The translations under genes and the position numbers were made by a program. The notes below the pieces were generated by a model. The model had not been told where the DNA came from. It did no database searches and saw only the letters and a program-made list of their open reading frames with translations. This document shows, in pieces, positions 1,103 to 12,047 of a DNA stretch of 64,000 bases. Position 1 is the stretch's first letter, and the number at the start of each line of letters is the position of its first letter. The stretch comes from Paenibacillus sp. JZ16. GTDB taxonomy: Bacteria > Bacillota > Bacilli > Paenibacillales > Paenibacillaceae. The DNA is taken from contig NZ_CP017659.1 of NCBI RefSeq assembly GCF_015326965.1, forward strand, positions 124,001 through 188,000. The letters run 5' to 3'.

Positions 1103-4100
1103 ATGAACAAAAAAACATTATTTAATGATGGATGGACATTTGCAAAAAGCAGTCTTGATCATACGGATTCGGCGAATCTGAAATTCCAACCCGTGGATAT
1201 TCCCCATGATTGGCTTATTTATAACACGGAGAATTTATATGAAAACAGCATAGGCTGGTACCGGAAGCAATGGACGTGGAATGGCGATGGAGCTCAGGTT
1301 CTGCTGTGTTTTGACGGGGTGTATATGGATTCTTCCGTCTATGTCAATGGTCATTGCGTGGGTGAATGGAAGTATGGCTATTCCTCCTTCGAACACGAAA
1401 TCACGGATTTCCTGGCAGAAGGGGAGAATGACATCGTTGTGAAGGTTGTGTTTCAAAGTCCGAACAGCCGGTGGTATTCGGGAGCGGGCATCTATCGTAA
1501 TGTGTGGTTAAAGATAAGGGAAGCGAACCATATCGCAACAGACGGCATTTATATATCAACAAAATGTCAGGAAAATGAATGGTTGGTCGAAGTCGACACA
1601 GAAATGAATATCGTAGATGATGTGGTCATCAACCATACGCTCCTGAAGGATGGTCAGAGGATCGCAGAGGTGTCCAATTGCGTCAACGCTAGCAGCACTG
1701 GCAATTTAACGAATACACAAACGATAGCTGTTGAGCGTCCATGGCTCTGGAGCCCTGATGAACCTCATCTGTATCAGTTGGTTACCGAGATGCGGGTGAC
1801 TGGAATGGATCTTCCGACTGACCAGTACGATGAAATGGTAGAATCGGTATCGCACAACGTGGGATTCCGCCATATTCAGCTTGATTCGAATCAGGGGTTC
1901 CTTCTGAACGGCCGCAAACTGAAATTGAACGGCGTATGCGAGCATCATGATCTCGGAGCTCTGGGTGCAGCGTTTAACAAAACGGCCTTAGCCAGAAGGT
2001 TTGCTATTCTGAAAGACATGGGGGTTAATGCGATCCGCACCGCTCACAATATGCCTGCGAAGGAATGGATGGATCTTGCGGATGAAATGGGGCTGCTGAT
2101 CGTATCGGAAGCCTTTGATATGTGGGAAAGACCGAAAACCCCTTATGATTATGCAAGATTTTTCCCGGATTGGGTTCAGCGCGACGTGAAGAGCTGGGTC
2201 AAACGGGATCGGAACCATCCGTCCCTTATCATGTGGAGCATCGGGAATGAAATATATGATACCCATGCGGATGAGAGGGGGCAGGAAATAACAAGAATGC
2301 TGATGGCGGAGGTCCAAAGATACGATCCCAAGCAAAATGCAAGCGTTACCATCGGGTCGAATTATATGCCTTGGGATAACGCTCAGTTATGTGCCGATAT
2401 CGTAAAGGTGGCAGGTTATAACTATGCCGAGAAGTATTACGAGAAGCATCATCAGGCACATCCGGATTGGATCATCTATGGCAGCGAGACCGCATCGGTC
2501 GTACAAAGCCGAGGCATCTATCATTTCCCGTTTGAAAAGTCCATTCTGGCCGATGACGACGAGCAGTGTTCCTCCCTTGGAAACAGCTCGACCAGTTGGG
2601 GGGCGAAATCGGCGGAGGCCTGCATTCTGGCAGAGCGAGATATGCCCTTCTCGCTGGGACAGTTTATATGGACCGGATTCGATTATATTGGAGAACCTAC
2701 GCCGTATCATACCAAAAACTCTTATTTCGGACAGATCGATACGGCAACCTTCAAGAAAGATTCTTATTATATCTATCAAGCAGCCTGGACGGATTACAAA
2801 ACGAAACCCATGGTGCATCTGCTGCCATACTGGGATTTCAACGACGGCCAAATGATCGATGTTCGCATCTGTTCCAATGCGCCAAGCGTCGAGCTGCAGC
2901 TGAATGGGGAAACCATCGGTACGCATGATATTGACCATGCACACGGAAGACAGCTGGTGGGTTGGTGGAAGATTCCTTATGCAAAAGGCGAATTGAAAGC
3001 GATCGCTTATGACGAAGCTGGCCGTATCGTGGCTGAGGATACAAGAACCTCTTTTGGCGATGCCAAGCGTATTGTTTTGTGCCCGGATAAAGAAGAATTA
3101 ACAGCCGATGGAACAGACCTCATCTTCCTGGAAATTGCGATGGAGGATGAGGACGGCCATTCCGTCGAGAACGCGAATAACCGGGTAGAGGTGCATGTGA
3201 CGGGTGCCGGGCGGTTGCTTGGACTCGATAACGGAGACAGCACGGATTACGATCCGTACAAAGGCCGGAGCCGAAGATTGTTCAGCGGCAAGCTGATGGC
3301 AATCATCGGAGCCACATTGGAGCCTGGCCCAATTCGAATCGAAGTGTCTTCCAATGGTTTGGAGAGCCGATGCCTACATCTGACATCCATCCCTGCGCAG
3401 GATGAATTGACAAAGGGCATATCGGCAAGCATGAATAACGAAGAGGGGCCGTGCCTCACGGGGAACATGCTCGAGCTTCCGCTTCGCAAGATTGAACTGA
3501 TCAGCGAAGGAGGTCAATCATTTCATCCGTCCAATCGGGAAATGGTGGTGCGTGCACTGTTACATCCACCGGAGACCTCTTATCAAGAGGTTGAATGGGC
3601 TGTCGTGAATGATGCCGGCATTGAATCCAATATCGCCAGCGTGGAAGCGGATGGCCATGAAGCCATCGTAACTGCTCTTGGCGACGGTGAGTTTCGTTTG
3701 AGATGTACGAGTCGGAACGGGACGGATAAAACCAAGCTCATCTCCCAGCTTGAATTTCAAGTTGACGGTTTGGGTGCGGCCTACAAAGACGCATACTCCT
3801 TCATCTCCGCAGGACTGTATGATTACAGTCAAGGTGATGTGGGAAACGGGAACGAAAGAGGCGTAGCTACGAGCAGAGACGGCGAGACGCAAGTCGGATT
3901 TCGGGACATCGATTTCGGTCCCCATGGCTCCGATACGATCACCATTCCGATATTTGCACTCTCAAGCGAAGCGTACTCGCTGCAAATCTGGGAAGGCATG
4001 CCTGGTGAGGAGGGCAGCTCCTTGCTGGCCGACTGCACTTATCAGAAAGAGTCCAAGTGGAACGTGTATCAGGAAGAAACCTACCGGCTATCCAAGAAGC

Positions 4101-4582
4101 TGCGCGGCATCACGTCAATATGCTTTGTCCTGCGCCAGAAGGTGCACATCAAAGGGTTTTATTTTCAAGCGGGGAATCGGGCCTTCGAGCAGCATTATGC
4201 CGCAGATGGTGATCGAATCTACGGAGATAGCTTTACGATTATGGATGACAAGGCTGTTGAAGGTATAGGAAATAATGTTTCCCTCGAGTTTGACCTAATG
4301 GATTTCTCAGAAGCAGGCACTTCAAAACTGATTGTGTACGGGCGCTCGGCCATAGATAAAAACACGATTCATATCCGGTTTGCCAATTCGGCGGGAGAAA
4401 GCAATCAGCTTGTTGAATTTACGCAAACTGATGGATACGAAGAGCAAGTGTTCGATCTGGAGCATGTGAACGGCAAACAGAAGGTGACGTTCATCTTCCT
4501 GCCGGGAAGCCAGTTTGATTTTGGCTGGTTCCGGTTTGTACGATCCGGTTTCATAATACAAGGGGTGACTCAAGGCTGCTGA
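1103..4582 (+). CDS. Glycoside hydrolase family 2 protein (beta-galactosidase-like)
   Basis: This 1159-residue enzyme belongs to glycoside hydrolase family 2, whose members remove beta-linked galactose, glucuronate or mannose with retention. The N-terminal jelly-roll sugar-binding domain spans about 1-145, followed by an immunoglobulin-like domain and the TIM barrel (about 260-560). The acid/base residue is probably E383 in WSIGNE and the nucleophile E462 in YGSETAS. A DUF4982-type domain starts near 585. The last 350 residues look like Ig-like and carbohydrate-binding modules, making it longer than LacZ. No signal peptide is visible, so it is probably cytoplasmic despite the binding modules. 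The start has a GAAGGTGAT ribosome binding site. Substrate cannot be read from sequence. Confidence 0.88.
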   Translation: MNKKTLFNDGWTFAKSSLDHTDSANLKFQPVDIPHDWLIYNTENLYENSIGWYRKQWTWNGDGAQVLLCFDGVYMDSSVYVNGHCVGEWKYGYSSFEHEITDFLAEGENDIVVKVVFQSPNSRWYSGAGIYRNVWLKIREANHIATDGIYISTKCQENEWLVEVDTEMNIVDDVVINHTLLKDGQRIAEVSNCVNASSTGNLTNTQTIAVERPWLWSPDEPHLYQLVTEMRVTGMDLPTDQYDEMVESVSHNVGFRHIQLDSNQGFLLNGRKLKLNGVCEHHDLGALGAAFNKTALARRFAILKDMGVNAIRTAHNMPAKEWMDLADEMGLLIVSEAFDMWERPKTPYDYARFFPDWVQRDVKSWVKRDRNHPSLIMWSIGNEIYDTHADERGQEITRMLMAEVQRYDPKQNASVTIGSNYMPWDNAQLCADIVKVAGYNYAEKYYEKHHQAHPDWIIYGSETASVVQSRGIYHFPFEKSILADDDEQCSSLGNSSTSWGAKSAEACILAERDMPFSLGQFIWTGFDYIGEPTPYHTKNSYFGQIDTATFKKDSYYIYQAAWTDYKTKPMVHLLPYWDFNDGQMIDVRICSNAPSVELQLNGETIGTHDIDHAHGRQLVGWWKIPYAKGELKAIAYDEAGRIVAEDTRTSFGDAKRIVLCPDKEELTADGTDLIFLEIAMEDEDGHSVENANNRVEVHVTGAGRLLGLDNGDSTDYDPYKGRSRRLFSGKLMAIIGATLEPGPIRIEVSSNGLESRCLHLTSIPAQDELTKGISASMNNEEGPCLTGNMLELPLRKIELISEGGQSFHPSNREMVVRALLHPPETSYQEVEWAVVNDAGIESNIASVEADGHEAIVTALGDGEFRLRCTSRNGTDKTKLISQLEFQVDGLGAAYKDAYSFISAGLYDYSQGDVGNGNERGVATSRDGETQVGFRDIDFGPHGSDTITIPIFALSSEAYSLQIWEGMPGEEGSSLLADCTYQKESKWNVYQEETYRLSKKLRGITSICFVLRQKVHIKGFYFQAGNRAFEQHYAADGDRIYGDSFTIMDDKAVEGIGNNVSLEFDLMDFSEAGTSKLIVYGRSAIDKNTIHIRFANSAGESNQLVEFTQTDGYEEQVFDLEHVNGKQKVTFIFLPGSQFDFGWFRFVRSGFIIQGVTQGC

Positions 4583-4604: not shown

Positions 4605-4704
4605 TTAGGAATTGAGGTAAGGTCCATCTGAACGGATCGATAGGATTTTAATTAACCCTGCGGTATAATTAAATGATCGACATACCTGGATGGAAGGGAC
4701 CGTG

Positions 4705-5490
4705 ATGGAAATGAAGCAAACCAATAACCCGAGGAGTAAAAGAGGGCGCAGGATTGTCATATGGACCCTGTCTATATTAGTCATTATTACCATAGCAGCT
4801 AGTGTTCTACTGGATTCTCTTACTTACAAACCGCTCGATGAAGCGAAAGCGGTGTTTCAAAGTGATACGAAAGTAGTTGTCGAACACCTCAAGGACGGCT
4901 ATCGTTTCGAGCCGGTGGGCGGGGAGATGACCCAGCCTGACATTATTTTTTATCCGGGTGGATTGGTGGAGCCTGAAAGTTATGCGCCTTTTGCCAAGAG
5001 AATGGCGGAGAAGGGGCACCGCGTATATATTGCATCCATGCCTTTGAATCTCGCCTTCTTCGGACAGAATAAAGCGGATTCCTTCATATCGGAGCATCAA
5101 GACAGACGTTATGTCATTGGCGGGCATTCCTTAGGCGGGGTTTTTGCTACGAGATATGCTGCTGAACATGCGGATGTCATTGATGGGGTTTACTTCATGG
5201 CATCCTACGCGGATGATGGAGGCAAGCTAAACGGGTTGAATATGTCCGCGCTTCAAATCACCGGTACGCAGGATGGCGTTCTTGATCGAACCGAGTGGGA
5301 AGCTGCAAGAAAGAACCTGCCGAACGATACGACATACGTGGATATTGCGGGCGGCAATCACGGACAATTCGGTTCTTACGGTTTCCAAAAGGGAGACAAC
5401 GAAGCTTCCTTAACCCCAGCAGAGCAGTTGATCGAAGTGACGGAAGCCATGGACCTCTGGATCCAGGGACTCGATTCGTTTCAACGCTGA
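4705..5490 (+). CDS. Membrane-anchored alpha/beta hydrolase
   Basis: This is a 261-residue alpha/beta-hydrolase-fold protein. A basic N-terminus and one hydrophobic segment (about residues 15-37) suggest a membrane anchor with the catalytic part outside. The nucleophile elbow is GGHSLGG (Ser 142). The likely acid is the Asp in GTQDGVL and the likely base the His in GGNHGQFG. The pattern resembles the Abhydrolase_5 group. The ATG at 4705 is preferred because GGAAGGG lies at proper distance; an ATG 15 bases upstream would place that site inside the gene. Substrate unknown. Confidence 0.8.
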   Translation: MEMKQTNNPRSKRGRRIVIWTLSILVIITIAASVLLDSLTYKPLDEAKAVFQSDTKVVVEHLKDGYRFEPVGGEMTQPDIIFYPGGLVEPESYAPFAKRMAEKGHRVYIASMPLNLAFFGQNKADSFISEHQDRRYVIGGHSLGGVFATRYAAEHADVIDGVYFMASYADDGGKLNGLNMSALQITGTQDGVLDRTEWEAARKNLPNDTTYVDIAGGNHGQFGSYGFQKGDNEASLTPAEQLIEVTEAMDLWIQGLDSFQR

Positions 5491-5508
5491 AACTGAAATG
5501 TAACCCGA

Positions 5509-5537
5509 TTGAAACTTCTACGTATATAGGTTATAAA
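5509..5537 (+). promoter_or_regulatory. Putative sigma-A promoter before the prenyl synthase fusion
   Basis: TTGAAA, a 17-base spacer and TATAAA lie 46 bases before the start codon of the isoprenoid synthase gene. This suggests separate transcription from the upstream hydrolase. Confidence 0.5.
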
Positions 5538-5583
5538 CATGGGTACATGTTAAACACTTAAAGAAGTTGAGGGATTCCATCAT

Positions 5584-7968
5584 ATGAATGTGGCGTATAC
5601 AGACTATGCCGATACGGGATATCGGCGGGCTGAGCAGAAGGCAGCTCAGTATTTTGCATCACTTTATGTACAGGTTAAGGAAAAGAGTTATGTGCCGATC
5701 CTGACAGAGGACATTCTAATATGGAAAAGGAAGCATATTCATCGTCCTTCATGGCTGTCTTTTTTATCGCGCGGAAAGAAGAAACCGGATAGCCGGGATT
5801 ATCATAAATATATCGGCTGGCTTCATTATACAGGTGAATTGGATAATTACTTGGATCGAAGCATTTCCTATATTTATATGAGAGACCTGGGGATGGACCT
5901 GAATTCGCCTGACACGAAGGCCCGAATTCGGCGCGTTGCCCAAGATACCAAGAAACTTCTGCTTCGCTCGAACAATAGGAACGGTGGAGGTACGCCGGAT
6001 TACATGAGTTTGGCCGGGCTGTACCGATGGGCCCAGAAGGAAGGCATCGAGAATGCCGTGATTTGGGTCATTAACAAACTGAAGCTCGTGGCGACCCATA
6101 TCCCGGAGGAGATGGATGCGGACCAAGCTCAACGCAAATTGATTAAAATTATCGTAGGCGTTGTTATGCACGTCATCGAGGATATGAATGTCGAGACATC
6201 GCCTGCGGAGCGCTCAGCCCGCCTTGATGATGCTATCCGGCTGGGATATTCCTATGGGTTGACCTATCCTTTTATAGACGATCTGCTCGATTCAAGGGTA
6301 CTTAACGCTCAAGAGAAGGAACAGTACTCCCAGATGATACGTCAGGCGCTCCTTACTGGAACGGTACCGGAGCTTGGGCAGTGGAGCGGGAAGAACATGG
6401 ATCTCGTTCAATTCGTTCATAAGGAACTTCGGGATGCATTTGAGTATATTCAGGGACACCAACGCCCGGAAACGCAGCATGCTTTTTTCGAGCAGTCTAA
6501 TGTGTTTTTTCATTCCCAGCATATTGACCGCATTAAGGATCTGGGCAATCCCAATTACAGTAACGAGGAATTATATCTGCCAATCATCCTGAAATCATCG
6601 TCCTCCCGCTTGATCGTCCGTTCCGTTATCAGCGCTTCGGCGGATGAAGGCTTTGAGGACCGGACCTTCTTCTACGGTATCTACAACCAGCTGGCCGATG
6701 ATTTTGCCGATATGTTTCAGGATATGGAAGACGGGGCGGTAACCCCGTATACGTACTATTTAAAATATCGCGGTCAGCGTACGGATCTTATCAATCCTTT
6801 TGAAATGTACTGGGCGGTTATTTCCCATCTGATTCATGGGGTGTATCATTCGGACGCCAAGACGCGAGAGGTGATGCTGGACCGGGCCATTAACGGCCTG
6901 AAGCGTTGTAAGGAACGGGTCGGTGCTGAGAAATATAACGAAATCATGGATATTTTTGCATCCGGTAACCCGGAATTCAATCGGCTTGTCCAGCAAATGG
7001 TTCGAACAGCCGATCAGGTGGATTTCTTCGATAAGTTGCTGCGGGACCAGATGGTTACGGTGCTCCGAAACGAGCGGAAGGAAAAGGATTATTTTATCGA
7101 TACCATTAAAACCGTTCGAAATGAGATTAACAACAGCTTGCAAATCGCAAAGCCCCTTGGCATTCCACCCATGAAAGAGTCGCTGATTGACGCCGCCAAT
7201 TATACGCTCGATGGGGACGGCAAACGTCTAAGACCTATCTTGACTTGGGTTATGGCGGTCAACGAATACGGTTTGCAAGCTTCCGCCATCGTGCCGCTGC
7301 TAAGGTCGCTTGAATACATGCACACCGCTTCCTTAATATTCGATGATTTGCCGTCTCAGGATAACGCCTCTACCCGTAGAGGACGACCGACCCTGCATCG
7401 GGTTCATGATAGCGCCACGGCGGAAATCACCGGTTTGTTCCTGATTCAGAAGGCTATCGAAGAACAATCGTCCCTTGATGGGTTTGATCCCCAGACGGTA
7501 TTAAAGCTGATTCAATATTCGTCTCAGCGAGCGGGAGATATGTGTTCGGGCCAGGCGATGGATTTGAATTCAAAAGGGAAGGCATTGTCTTTGGAGGAGC
7601 TGAATACGGTATGTTATTACAAGACGGGCATTGCCTTCGAGGCATCTCTCGTCATGCCTGCCATCCTCGCTCAGGTGAAGGAGACCGAAATTGCGACATT
7701 GAAGAAATTCGCCTACCATGCGGGCATTGCCTTTCAGATTCAGGATGATTTGCTTGATGTGCAGGGCGATATGGAGCAGCTCGGGAAACCCGGAGGACAG
7801 GATGCGGAGAATAATACATCGACCTTTGTGAGCATTTTGGGTCAGGAAGGCGCCAGTCGGGAAATGTGGGAGCATTATTGCCTGGCTATGGAGGCGCTGC
7901 AGGAGATGCCGCGCAATTCGGCGTTTCTCAAGCATTTATTAAATTACATGGTAAATCGAGATCGTTAA
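5584..7968 (+). CDS. Two-domain isoprenoid synthase: N-terminal synthase-like half, C-terminal polyprenyl synthetase
   Basis: This 794-residue protein ends in a recognisable trans-polyprenyl diphosphate synthase (about 505-790). It has GDGKRLRP, the first Asp-rich motif DDLPSQD (587-593) followed by RRGRPTLH, a GQAMDL segment, YYKTG and the second Asp-rich motif QIQDDLLD (718-725). Such enzymes condense isopentenyl diphosphate with allylic diphosphates. The first 490 residues are not found in ordinary synthases, which are about 300 residues. They are helical and carry IDDLLD (231-236) and, 135 residues later, NQLADDFADMFQDMEDG (368-384). These resemble the two metal-binding motifs of class I terpene synthases. 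A bifunctional enzyme that makes and then cyclises a prenyl diphosphate is my inference. It could instead be one active and one regulatory domain. Confidence 0.8.
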   Translation: MNVAYTDYADTGYRRAEQKAAQYFASLYVQVKEKSYVPILTEDILIWKRKHIHRPSWLSFLSRGKKKPDSRDYHKYIGWLHYTGELDNYLDRSISYIYMRDLGMDLNSPDTKARIRRVAQDTKKLLLRSNNRNGGGTPDYMSLAGLYRWAQKEGIENAVIWVINKLKLVATHIPEEMDADQAQRKLIKIIVGVVMHVIEDMNVETSPAERSARLDDAIRLGYSYGLTYPFIDDLLDSRVLNAQEKEQYSQMIRQALLTGTVPELGQWSGKNMDLVQFVHKELRDAFEYIQGHQRPETQHAFFEQSNVFFHSQHIDRIKDLGNPNYSNEELYLPIILKSSSSRLIVRSVISASADEGFEDRTFFYGIYNQLADDFADMFQDMEDGAVTPYTYYLKYRGQRTDLINPFEMYWAVISHLIHGVYHSDAKTREVMLDRAINGLKRCKERVGAEKYNEIMDIFASGNPEFNRLVQQMVRTADQVDFFDKLLRDQMVTVLRNERKEKDYFIDTIKTVRNEINNSLQIAKPLGIPPMKESLIDAANYTLDGDGKRLRPILTWVMAVNEYGLQASAIVPLLRSLEYMHTASLIFDDLPSQDNASTRRGRPTLHRVHDSATAEITGLFLIQKAIEEQSSLDGFDPQTVLKLIQYSSQRAGDMCSGQAMDLNSKGKALSLEELNTVCYYKTGIAFEASLVMPAILAQVKETEIATLKKFAYHAGIAFQIQDDLLDVQGDMEQLGKPGGQDAENNTSTFVSILGQEGASREMWEHYCLAMEALQEMPRNSAFLKHLLNYMVNRDR

Positions 7969-8022
7969 ATTGCTTCTATTAAATTGTTAATGTTCAATCA
8001 TGAGAAAAATATCCCGAGAGGA

Positions 8023-8052
8023 AGTGTTGGCGTGAATGCCAGCACTTTTTTT
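8023..8052 (+). terminator. Terminator after the isoprenoid synthase fusion
   Basis: GTGTTGGC (8024-8031) and GCCAGCAC (8038-8045) form an 8-bp stem with one G-U pair, followed by seven T residues. Confidence 0.85.
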
Positions 8053-8126
8053 GGTTATGGCATTGGTTTAAGCCATGCTTGCTGCATGCGTGTTACAAGG
8101 ATGATATTGTGCAAAAGCAGCAATTC

Positions 8127-8394
8127 AGAAGAAACACAGCGTATTCCCTATAGATACAATAAGCCCTATGATACGCTTTTAGCCAGCGACCTGTCGCCGA
8201 TTGAAAGAACGCCCCGTCTGAGCACGCCGGTTAGTATCGTGGTTGGCGAACAAAGTCCTGAATCCATGCTGGAGGTTGGGAAGCAGCTAAGCCGAGCTAT
8301 TCCAAACGCCAAAAAAACGATTCTAGAGGGCCAAGATCATATGCCGGATCCGGAATGGTTGCTGCCATTACTCTCAAGCTTTCTTTACAAGTAG
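8127..8394 (+). pseudogene. C-terminal remnant of an alpha/beta hydrolase
   Basis: About 88 residues match the end of an alpha/beta hydrolase: a cap-region piece, then STPVSIVVGE, which is the strand before the catalytic acid, and EGQDHM, which carries the catalytic-His-like residue. The nucleophile half of a normal 250-270-residue enzyme is absent. The open frame extends upstream only through the terminator hairpin at 8023-8052, which is not plausible coding sequence. I read this as a decayed gene. A short expressed protein is possible but no ribosome binding site is evident. Confidence 0.65.
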
Positions 8395-8518
8395 TTAAAG
8401 TGGAGAAGAATAAAAGCGAGATTGTTTTTTTGATAAAAAAGTACAGTTCTTGCTGCAAGGAATTTGGTATGATGACCTCATAGCCAATCCAACTTGATAG
8501 GGGGCAACAGGATTTGAA

Positions 8519-9856
8519 ATGCAGAGCGGTGAAATCGTTCAACGCGCCATTGATTATATCGAGGATCATCTGACGGAATCACTGACACTTGAGGGGATTG
8601 CCGACGTGGCGGCCATGTCGCTGCCCAATTTATACCGTTTGTTTCATAGCCTGACGGGACACCCCATTAAAGAATACATACGTAAACGCAGAATCAACGA
8701 AGCCGCCAACTGCTTGCGAAATAGCGACTTGCCGACCATCGATATCGGGTACCGCTGCGGATTTGAGTCGTATCCGACATTCATTAAAACCTTCAAGAGA
8801 CTCACGGGACAGACTCCAGGACAATATCGAAGATCTCAGGTGGTTTACAGCTTCGAACGGATGAATCTGAAAGAGCATGTAAGCTATTTGGAAGAACGGG
8901 CCTTATCAGAACGATTTCCTGAAGTAAGGGTCATCCGTCTGAATCCTCAGCAAGGGATCGGCCATCTCTTCGTTTCCGAGTATGAGGAGGGTATAGAGAC
9001 CGCTGCGATCGATCATTTTCGCGAACGGTTGTCATCACACCGTATCGATCTCAATGGGCTGAGGCTCTTCGGTTGGAACGTGGACATGGAAGGTGAAACC
9101 AAGCCCTTCGGTTATCAACTGCTGGCTGTAGGCACGATGGAGCAAGCCGAGATGATGAAGCATTCGGAACTTTATTCCCTGACGCTTGCGGGTGGATTGT
9201 ATGCAGTGGCCCGAACGCCGTCGGTAGCGGAAGACAGTATTCAAAACACCTGGAACCGTTTGTTCTCCGAGTGGCTGCCCCGCAGTGTGTTTGAGCAAGG
9301 AAAGCATGAGTTCATTGAAGAATATGCGCTGAACCGGGATCAAATTGTTCGGATGAAGCTTTATCTTCCGGTGGAACGAAGCAAGCTGGTGAAACCTATT
9401 GAAATCGTGCAGTTGTCTTCGCTTAAGGTGATGCGCTTTCGAAGGACGGGTATAAATTGCGTCAAACAAGCGGATGAAGCTTCCATTGCCTGGTTATGCC
9501 GTAATGGATTGATGGAAGATTCGCGAATCCGCATATTCATGCACTGTGACGGTGGACTGCTGGATGAAGGCTCTGTTTATGAGGTTTATATAGCTCCTCC
9601 TGAGGATTTTCTTCCTTCCTGTGAAGAAGCAGATCTACAAGTTGAGCTGGAAGGCGGAATGTATGCTTGTCTGGAGTCAGGTGCCGCTGGCACGATGACA
9701 GGTGTACTTGAAAGAGTGGATCGATGGCTCGATATGTCAACCGAGTATAGGCCGGATCCAGGACGCTTTTGGTATGCGAGTTATTTGCCTAAAGAAGAGG
9801 CGGATCTCGGGATGATCAGAGTGAAGTGTTATGTTCCTGTTCAAATCATGTCATGA
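8519..9856 (+). CDS. AraC-family regulator with tandem effector-binding domains
   Basis: This 445-residue transcription factor begins with a double helix-turn-helix AraC domain (about 5-105), including the typical RRINEAA and FESYPTFIKTFKRLTGQTPGQ positions. Two consecutive GyrI/AraC-effector-like domains follow (about 135-290 and 295-440). This is the reverse of classical AraC, where sensing precedes DNA binding, and matches the Rob/SoxS-with-GyrI architecture. Carrying two sensor domains is less common. The VOC protein gene starts within about 20-115 bases downstream, so the two are probably co-transcribed, suggesting response to a small hydrophobic compound or drug. The effector is unknown. 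Confidence 0.85.
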   Translation: MQSGEIVQRAIDYIEDHLTESLTLEGIADVAAMSLPNLYRLFHSLTGHPIKEYIRKRRINEAANCLRNSDLPTIDIGYRCGFESYPTFIKTFKRLTGQTPGQYRRSQVVYSFERMNLKEHVSYLEERALSERFPEVRVIRLNPQQGIGHLFVSEYEEGIETAAIDHFRERLSSHRIDLNGLRLFGWNVDMEGETKPFGYQLLAVGTMEQAEMMKHSELYSLTLAGGLYAVARTPSVAEDSIQNTWNRLFSEWLPRSVFEQGKHEFIEEYALNRDQIVRMKLYLPVERSKLVKPIEIVQLSSLKVMRFRRTGINCVKQADEASIAWLCRNGLMEDSRIRIFMHCDGGLLDEGSVYEVYIAPPEDFLPSCEEADLQVELEGGMYACLESGAAGTMTGVLERVDRWLDMSTEYRPDPGRFWYASYLPKEEADLGMIRVKCYVPVQIMS

Positions 9857-10811: not shown

Positions 10812-12047
10812 ATGATGCTAAGAAAAGGAATAAGTGTCGTTATACTGTTCAGTCTTCTGGTCGTTCTAATGCCTGTCAACAAAGTCAATGCCGCACCGAA
10901 CTGGAATTTGGTATGGAGTGACGAGTTCAATGGGACCTCGCTCAACAGAGCCAATTGGACACCGGAAATCGGTACCGGCAGCGGCGGATGGGGAAACAAT
11001 GAGCTGCAGTATTATACCGACCGGGCACAGAATGTTCAGGTAACTGGCGGTAACCTTGTTATTACAGCGCAGAAGGAATCCTACGGCGGGATGAATTACA
11101 CTTCTGCCCGGATCAAAACCCAGGATTTGAAGAGCTTTACTTACGGGAAAGTAGAGGCGCGGATCAAGCTGCCATCGGGTCAAGGTCTATGGCCGGCGTT
11201 CTGGATGCTGGGAAGCAATATCAGTTCGATCGGCTGGCCGAAAAGCGGAGAAATTGACATTATGGAACGGGTAAACCATAATCCTTACGTGAATGGTACC
11301 GTACACTGGGATGCAGGAGGGCATGCCGAATATGGACGAGTATCCGGCAATTTGGATTTCTCCCAGTTCCATGTCTACAGCATAGAGTGGGATTCCAAAT
11401 ATATTCGTTGGTTTGTAGACGGTCAGCAGTTCAATGAATTCTATATTGAGAATGGAACCGGCAATACCGAGGAATTCCAGCGCCCGTTCTTTCTATTATT
11501 GAATTTGGCAGTCGGCGGAAATTGGCCTGGAAGTCCGAACAATTCCACGCCGTTCCCATCGCAGATGCTGGTGGATTATGTACGCGTGTATCAAGACAGT
11601 GGTGCATCGAACGTGATCAGTGATGGGATTTACACGATCGCTTCCAAGGCGAGCGGCAAAGTGATGGATGTTGTGGATGTCTCCATGGCAAGGGGAGCCA
11701 AGATTCAGCAGTGGACCAACTACGTTGCCAATAATCAAAGATTCAGGGTAGAAAGCACCGGAGACGGGTACTACAAGCTCACAGCCGTGCACAGCGGAAA
11801 GGTTCTTGATGTGCCGAATTCGTCCACAGCCACCGGCGTTCAGCTGCAGCAATGGGACGATAATGGATCGAATGCGCAGCGATGGAGAATCGTTGATGTT
11901 GGCGGAGGCTATTACAAACTTGTGTCCAAAGTAAGCGGACTGGCAGTCGATGTAGCCAGTGCGTCCACAGCAGATGGGGCGGTTGTCCAGCAGTGGACGG
12001 ATAATGGTACGGATGCGCAGAAATGGATGTTCACCAAAATTAACTAA
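10812..12047 (+). CDS. Secreted GH16 endo-beta-1,3(4)-glucanase with ricin-type lectin tail
   Basis: This is a 411-residue exported glycosidase. A signal peptide (residues 1-27, cleavage near VNA-AP) precedes a GH16 catalytic domain (about 30-265). Its signature GEIDIMERVN carries the nucleophile E147, D149 and acid/base E152. Residues 270-411 are three repeats with QQW motifs of a ricin B-type (CBM13) beta-trefoil that binds sugars. Enzymes of this group cut laminarin, lichenan or fungal cell-wall glucan outside the cell. GGAGGGAAC precedes two adjacent ATGs, so the start may be one codon later. It is a single-gene unit with its own promoter and terminator. Confidence 0.92.
   Translation: MMLRKGISVVILFSLLVVLMPVNKVNAAPNWNLVWSDEFNGTSLNRANWTPEIGTGSGGWGNNELQYYTDRAQNVQVTGGNLVITAQKESYGGMNYTSARIKTQDLKSFTYGKVEARIKLPSGQGLWPAFWMLGSNISSIGWPKSGEIDIMERVNHNPYVNGTVHWDAGGHAEYGRVSGNLDFSQFHVYSIEWDSKYIRWFVDGQQFNEFYIENGTGNTEEFQRPFFLLLNLAVGGNWPGSPNNSTPFPSQMLVDYVRVYQDSGASNVISDGIYTIASKASGKVMDVVDVSMARGAKIQQWTNYVANNQRFRVESTGDGYYKLTAVHSGKVLDVPNSSTATGVQLQQWDDNGSNAQRWRIVDVGGGYYKLVSKVSGLAVDVASASTADGAVVQQWTDNGTDAQKWMFTKIN

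Follow-up and report, generated by a model that had tools for sequence, protein, structure and literature searches.

Fungal chimeric terpene synthases (PTTS), among them the fusicoccadiene synthase PaFS, unite an N-terminal class I domain with a C-terminal prenyltransferase that makes its substrate, according to portions of two accounts of these enzymes (PMC8307374, PMC8190136). A section of the first describes chimeric prenyltransferase-cyclases as unique to fungi (PMC8307374), and a section of the second gives the linker of PaFS as flexible and ~70 residues long (PMC8190136). Our search of titles and abstracts, which cover subscription papers thinly, found no report of a prenyl synthase fused to a class I domain in bacteria. 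Here, we describe a protein with this predicted composition, encoded at positions 5584..7968 of a 64,000-nucleotide stretch of the Paenibacillus sp. JZ16 genome (NZ_CP017659.1, 124,001–188,000 of the forward strand; hereafter, the window). It shares with PaFS and its relatives a one-chain layout, in which a predicted class I domain precedes a prenyltransferase, and an earlier note on this DNA was right to draw that parallel. The resemblance is one of layout, and probably also of logic. We incline, with somewhat better than even confidence, to the view that the protein is a self-contained two-step terpenoid enzyme, in which the C-terminal half (C-half) would make geranylgeranyl diphosphate (GGPP) and the N-terminal half (N-half) would ionize it to a terpene.

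Results

Two domains joined by a helix

The fused gene is an intact open reading frame on the + strand that starts with ATG and encodes 794 amino acids, with the exact boundaries first reported in the earlier note. Its full-length predicted model (predicted local distance difference test, pLDDT, 87.8; predicted template modeling score, pTM, 0.85) consists of two domains. The N-half (residues 1–490; 5584..7053, +) has a predicted class I isoprenoid-synthase fold and a profile match to a family of stand-alone clostridial proteins, and the C-half (residues 499–794; 7078..7965, +) is a predicted trans-prenyl diphosphate synthase. Residues 482–516 (7027..7131, +) form a single unbroken predicted helix across the joint of the halves, in contrast to the flexible linker of PaFS.

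For conservation analyses, we aligned the window protein with 95 non-redundant full-length homologues that are 53–86% identical to it; counts from these 96 sequences are inflated by shared ancestry, which identities down to 53% limit but do not remove. The connector residues F481, D483, K484, L485, R487, and D488 are invariant in this alignment. Each half also carries two Asp-rich motifs at the positions previously noted: IDDLLD (231–236) and DDFADMFQDMEDG (372–384) in the N-half, and DDLPSQD (587–593) and DDLLD (721–725) in the C-half. The nearest database entries are 94–99% identical over the whole length of the protein, and the named ones among them come from Paenibacillus lautus and are labeled “polyprenyl synthetase family protein”; named relatives of the fused protein carry the same label or a similar one.

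The C-terminal half resembles GGPP synthases

The C-half passes the Pfam family PF00348 with 178.3 bits against a cut-off of 27 (residues 533–760), and its predicted fold is that of trans-prenyl diphosphate synthases. Both of its Asp-rich motifs, together with its isopentenyl- and allylic-diphosphate residues, are invariant (96/96). These comprise the isopentenyl-diphosphate site GKRLRP (546–551; 7219..7236, +; K547, R548, R550, and P551 invariant), the first Asp motif DDLPSQD, which contains a two-residue insertion (7342..7362, +; D587, D588, and D593 each 96/96), GQAMD (656–660; 7549..7563, +; G656, Q657, and D660 each 96/96), and the second Asp motif DDLLD (7744..7758, +; D721, D722, and D725 each 96/96). 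The fifth and fourth residues ahead of the first motif, A582 and S583 (7327..7332, +), are non-aromatic and each conserved in all 96 sequences. A two-residue insertion in the first Asp motif without an aromatic residue four or five positions before it is the rule given for Type-II GGPP synthases in part of one account (PMC7261888), and the C-half displays this signature. Its product is probably C20 (geranylgeranyl) diphosphate.

Two departures from canon had been suggested for this half. The replacement of GGQxxDL by SGQAMDL is present (655–661), but it is trivial, as position 655 varies (Met in 57/96). The supposed substitution of Asn for the usual Lys after the second Asp motif, on the other hand, is mistaken: K735 (in LGK), 14 residues past D721, is kept in 96/96, and the Lys that has been lost is a later one (KxTY), where the window protein has Thr745 and its relatives mostly Asn (52/96) or Thr (24/96). 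The C-half thus shares fold, both Asp motifs, and isopentenyl- and allylic-diphosphate residues with Type-II geranylgeranyl and farnesyl diphosphate synthases (CrtE, IspA) but differs from them in its fusion to the N-half and in the missing KxTY lysine. Three further places in the host genome, a single 7.42-Mb contig, match the C-half.

The N-terminal half has a predicted class I fold and invariant motifs

No Pfam or NCBIfam family scores above its cut-off in the N-half, as would be expected if the protein were simply a prenyl synthase of the usual kind, extended at its N terminus by an unrelated sequence. This idea is contradicted, at the level of prediction, by the fold of the N-half and by profile comparison, and we regard it as extremely improbable. 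A model of the N-half by itself is entirely alpha-helical, and the structural matches listed for it belong to the class I isoprenoid synthases, in agreement with what the earlier note had anticipated; the Asp motifs are found close to the ends of two distinct predicted helices, in the order seen in prenyl synthases.

The motif residues of the N-half are strictly conserved: D232, D233, D236, D372, D373, D376, and D380 are identical in 96/96 aligned sequences, and the motifs are therefore not a product of chance. In order along the chain, the N-half contains an invariant basic cluster, R184-K185-x-x-K188 (6133..6147, +), near the start of a predicted helix (179–200) that precedes the Asp-motif helix; the first Asp motif, D232-D-L-L-D236 (6277..6291, +; 96/96); Q312-x-x-D315-R316 (6517..6531, +; 96/96), at the place of the prenyl-synthase GQxxD; K337-S-S-S-S-R342 (6592..6609, +; K337 and R342 96/96, S341 95/96), in the helix ahead of the second Asp motif and at the place of KTG; and the second metal motif, Q369-x-x-D372-D373-x-x-D376-x-x-x-D380 (6688..6723, +; 96/96). 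The landmarks of the C-half (K547/R548/R550, D587–D593, Q657xxD660, K680, and Q718xxDDxxD) follow the same order. Spacings in the N-half and C-half, respectively, are 44–48 and 37–40 residues from the basic cluster to the first motif, 80 and 70 from the first motif to Q, 25 and 23 from Q to K, and 35 and 41 from K to the second motif.

The two halves nonetheless differ in residues that matter for acceptor binding. Equivalents of H580 and R598/R599 of the C-half bind isopentenyl or allylic diphosphate in prenyl synthases, and the N-half sequence has no counterparts of them. From these residues, the ionization half of the chemistry looks preserved in the N-half and the acceptor site only in part, which would favor a cyclase or lyase.

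Several observations weigh against this assignment. The second metal motif, DDFADMFQD, has Asp at the Ser/Thr position of class I terpene synthases in 96/96 sequences, and the basic cluster R184/K185/K188 is kept about where prenyl synthases bind isopentenyl diphosphate. Together, these features leave room for the N-half to be a second coupling enzyme, which would use the diphosphate made by the C-half to add another isopentenyl unit, to form a head-to-head join, or for transfer to some other acceptor. The DDxxD, QxxD, K, and QxxDDxxD landmarks are prenyl-synthase-like in order and spacing, as coupling chemistry would have it, and the best 30 rows of a Foldseek search of the PDB with the N-half are all prenyl synthases. 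Set against this, the N-half lacks both the His that precedes the first Asp motif by seven residues and the RRG that follows it, and among its VIA structural matches the best 50 of 998 chains compared are all terpene synthases, with no prenyl synthase. On balance, we consider coupling unlikely and a terpene-forming N-half the better account.

A second alternative is that the N-half does not catalyze at all and instead sets the chain length or oligomerization of the C-half, as do the small subunits of heteromeric prenyl synthases. The C-half alone has the canonical catalytic residues, as this would demand; the N-half motif residues, however, are invariant in 96/96 sequences and their counterparts in 81/81 stand-alone proteins, a degree of conservation needless in a dead domain. 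We find a helper role rather improbable.

Comparison with described terpene synthases

With canonical class I terpene synthases (5-epi-aristolochene synthase, BjKS, and others), the N-half shares its predicted alpha fold, its first motif (DDLLD, 232–236), and a possible metal-ligand triad at i, i+4, and i+8, a spacing likewise found in the C-half prenyl synthase. It differs in having Asp for Ser/Thr in the NSE triad, and so departs from the NSE/DTE pattern; a source on terpene synthases states, in the part concerned, that those of plants, fungi, and bacteria generally have an NSE-type second motif (PMC7484799). The earlier proposal of a fused prenyltransferase and cyclase holds as to the predicted class I fold of the N-half, whereas the Asp in the second motif and the basic cluster both put the cyclase identity in doubt. 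As the N-half has DDxxDxxxD in place of an NSE-type motif, we do not class the window protein as a member of the fungal chimeric synthases; the N-half also belongs to a different sequence family.

Within Bacillales, the large-terpene synthase YtpB (tetraprenyl-beta-curcumene synthase; DUF2600) is a class I terpenoid enzyme of the same bacteria. We considered and rejected the N-half as a YtpB-like protein: hhalign gave a probability of 0.6% over 15 columns, and the N-half has no DUF2600 Pfam match at E values up to 10. The YtpB gene, which is present in 40/40 related genomes searched, the host included, occupies a separate locus in the host genome. A search for canonical terpene synthases with the PF19086 profile gave no match in the host genome and none in control genomes either, and one squalene/phytoene-synthase-like gene lies elsewhere in the host genome.

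A stand-alone clostridial family related to the N-half

When we searched 398 genomes across the phylum, we obtained ten matches to the N-half, of which eight are fused proteins; the other two are frames from a single genus, 399 and 425 aa long. A protein search with one of these stand-alone frames recovered 1703 proteins at E <= 0.001 among 7995 candidates. Of the 120 matches listed, those with names come from Clostridium, Alkaliphilus, Proteiniborus, Tissierella, Gottschalkia, and others, where they are entered as “hypothetical protein,” as “uncharacterized protein,” or under the name “class 1 isoprenoid biosynthesis enzyme”; none of the 120 contains a Pfam domain. We aligned 81 of them, picked for low redundancy. 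The resulting profile matches residues 177–391 of the N-half with a probability of 93% (E 3e-7, 181 columns; hhalign), and a larger N-half alignment gave 92%. Conversely, one stand-alone member (P0122) used as query matches three fused proteins at E 8e-5 to 3e-4.

Motif residues pair up when 15 N-halves are aligned jointly with 21 stand-alone proteins, and the two groups share the DxxxD, K, and QxxDDxxDxxxD landmarks. In the stand-alone family, D166, D170, Q235, K259, S263, Q291, D294, D295, D298, and D302 are invariant (81/81). These include equivalents of the second metal motif, the K and S aligned with K337-S-S-S-S-R342, and both Asp of the first motif, which here reads D-N-x-x-D; in addition, R184 of the N-half aligns with R133 (hhalign). 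The stand-alone proteins (~420 aa) differ from the N-half in being unfused to a prenyl synthase, in their first 200 residues, and in the DNxxD form of the first motif. Their members in our sets (L125, L126, L139, L140, and P0122–P0241) constitute a large, uncharacterized, class I isoprenoid-synthase-like family, and in the two loci that we inspected by eye, we saw no isoprenoid neighbors.

The halves appear to be inherited together and are widespread in Paenibacillales

Ratios of nonsynonymous to synonymous substitution rates (dN/dS) against relatives are 0.09–0.11 for the N-half and 0.06–0.07 for the C-half (from four comparisons, of which two have dS >1.4; one more comparison was saturated), and both halves are, on these estimates, under purifying selection. 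Pairwise distances of the two halves correlate at 0.86 over the 96 sequences, the pattern of a unit inherited together. An internal duplication was rejected: the N-half and C-half profiles give no significant alignment (probability 0.6%, E 0.09), and the halves thus look related at the level of fold only.

We detected the N-half of the fused gene in 89/198 Paenibacillales genomes and in 43/398 genomes across the class, and the fused gene in 8/398 genomes across the phylum; the three samples overlap. The class-level count is 43 rather than 44 because we discounted as false one match (G424, E 7.7e-4) whose best frame, of 351 aa, is transcriptional-regulator-like by eye. The 71 named loci are mostly from Paenibacillus, the rest belonging to Neobacillus, Bacillus, Cytobacillus, Gracilibacillus, Sporosarcina, Lysinibacillus, and an uncultured member of the Bacillaceae, and a search with a divergent member (N-half 43% identical) includes Clostridium cylindrosporum and C. 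polyendosporum among its listed matches. Frames are largely intact: 88 of 91 matches in the order-wide search fall in open frames of 758–871 aa, and the remainder comprises a 659-aa frame (L010) together with two short fragments, of which one lies beside a start-less frame (G097). Separately, the fused gene is split into two or three frames in Paenibacillus rigui (L058), whose break points L010 shares, and in Sporosarcina thermotolerans (L118), reflecting either sequencing error or decay.

A conserved promoter-like element precedes the gene

A promoter-like element of the type recognized by extracytoplasmic function (ECF) sigma factors, GTAACC-N15-CGTAT (5500..5525, +), begins 84 bases ahead of the start codon of the fused gene. 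CGTA is the -10 sequence of SigW. The first half-site of the element resembles the -35 consensus of this ECF factor, GAAACCT, as given in a section of one source (PMC6713349). Across 70 upstream loci (69 from named relatives with intact frames, plus the window), the element occurs in 39, starting 66–207 bases upstream of the gene with varying distance and spacer sequence; a spacer of 14 occurs in 0/70 and one of 16 in 2/70. It was found in 0/30 dinucleotide shuffles of the set, a test that was not blind, since the element was picked after reading the sequences. All 39 loci are from Paenibacillus, and the 31 without it comprise 10 from Paenibacillus and all 21 from other genera. When 40 loci that have distinct spacers are compared, the spacer varies at most of its positions, and flanking positions that we had not selected for are conserved: G and T before AACC in 38/40 and 34/40, and A and T after CGT in 40/40 and 38/40. 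That both spacer and position vary reduces the concern about shared ancestry without removing it.

The host genome contains five exact matches to the element, the same number as a reversed control; the other four lie inside open frames, and the site thus seems private to the fused gene. Patterns for the sporulation factors sigE, sigF, sigG, and sigK show no enrichment upstream of the gene, nor do those for sigA, sigB, and sigH, and a sigma-70 scan of 5400–8600 gave 4 matches against 4.8 expected by chance. To judge from the element, an ECF sigma factor probably directs transcription, which would then form part of an envelope-stress response.

No recurring genomic partner

In the 71 loci, we found no conserved partner gene among frames of at least 90 aa, the gene itself and its antisense frames excepted. 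The most recurrent neighbor family, ABC-transporter-like by eye, occurs in 19/71 loci, scattered over both sides and strands. This bears on the notion that the protein prenylates a peptide or protein in the manner of ComQ of the ComX quorum system. ComQ is a polyprenyl-synthetase-family protein of Bacillales, which lends the notion some appeal, but it is single-domain, and the 71 loci hold neither a recurring partner nor comP/comA-like genes, within a comparison of frames of at least 90 aa that a comX-sized gene would escape. We think such a role very improbable and retain the two-step terpenoid enzyme as our working explanation.

The alpha/beta hydrolase directly upstream (window 4690–5490) was rejected as a conserved partner, being present in only 2/71 loci (L053 and L054) and without a match in a close relative (L052) whose promoter stretch is identical. 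Downstream, two parts of a 136-aa frame (7984–8394) match pieces ~600 bases apart in L052 and L053; it looks like a deletion remnant, and by eye its second part resembles the terminal portion of an alpha/beta hydrolase, with no Pfam match. Two glycoside hydrolases lie near the fused gene but are not linked to it: a large family 2 protein that weakly matches CBM6 (1103–4582) and a family 16 enzyme bearing ricin-type lectin repeats (10812–12047).

Discussion

If the protein is the two-step enzyme that we favor, its C-half would condense dimethylallyl and isopentenyl diphosphates to C20 (geranylgeranyl) diphosphate. Once this is released, the N-half would bind it through Mg2+ coordinated by D232/D236 and D372/D376/D380, assisted by K337 and basic residues close by. 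Removal of the diphosphate would yield a carbocation that cyclizes or eliminates to a terpene hydrocarbon or alcohol. With the two sites tied by a continuous predicted helix, the intermediate would not need to mix with the pool that supplies quinones and cell-wall lipids. Expression of the gene would respond to envelope stress through an ECF sigma factor.

A layout of prenyltransferase plus class I domain that has so far been described from fungi is here found in a soil bacterium and many of its spore-forming relatives. We judge it an evenly balanced question whether these proteins represent a bacterial bifunctional prenyltransferase-terpene synthase family independent of the fungal one, in which the N-half would be the founding member of a class I terpene synthase family whose second metal motif is of the prenyl-synthase style, and which provides a one-gene diterpene pathway, ECF-controlled in Paenibacillus. 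If they do, close to half of all Paenibacillales species, along with many Bacillaceae and some Clostridium, possess such a pathway, which annotation records merely as “polyprenyl synthetase” or under another prenyl synthase name; the label “polyprenyl synthetase family protein” can conceal a second enzyme domain. The stand-alone clostridial relatives supply a family in which the chemistry can be tested in parallel. A widespread bacterial counterpart would constitute a second origin of the fungal assembly-line layout, would offer a small model for transfer between two active sites, and would suggest that common soil-dwelling and spore-forming bacteria harbor an untapped family of terpenes.
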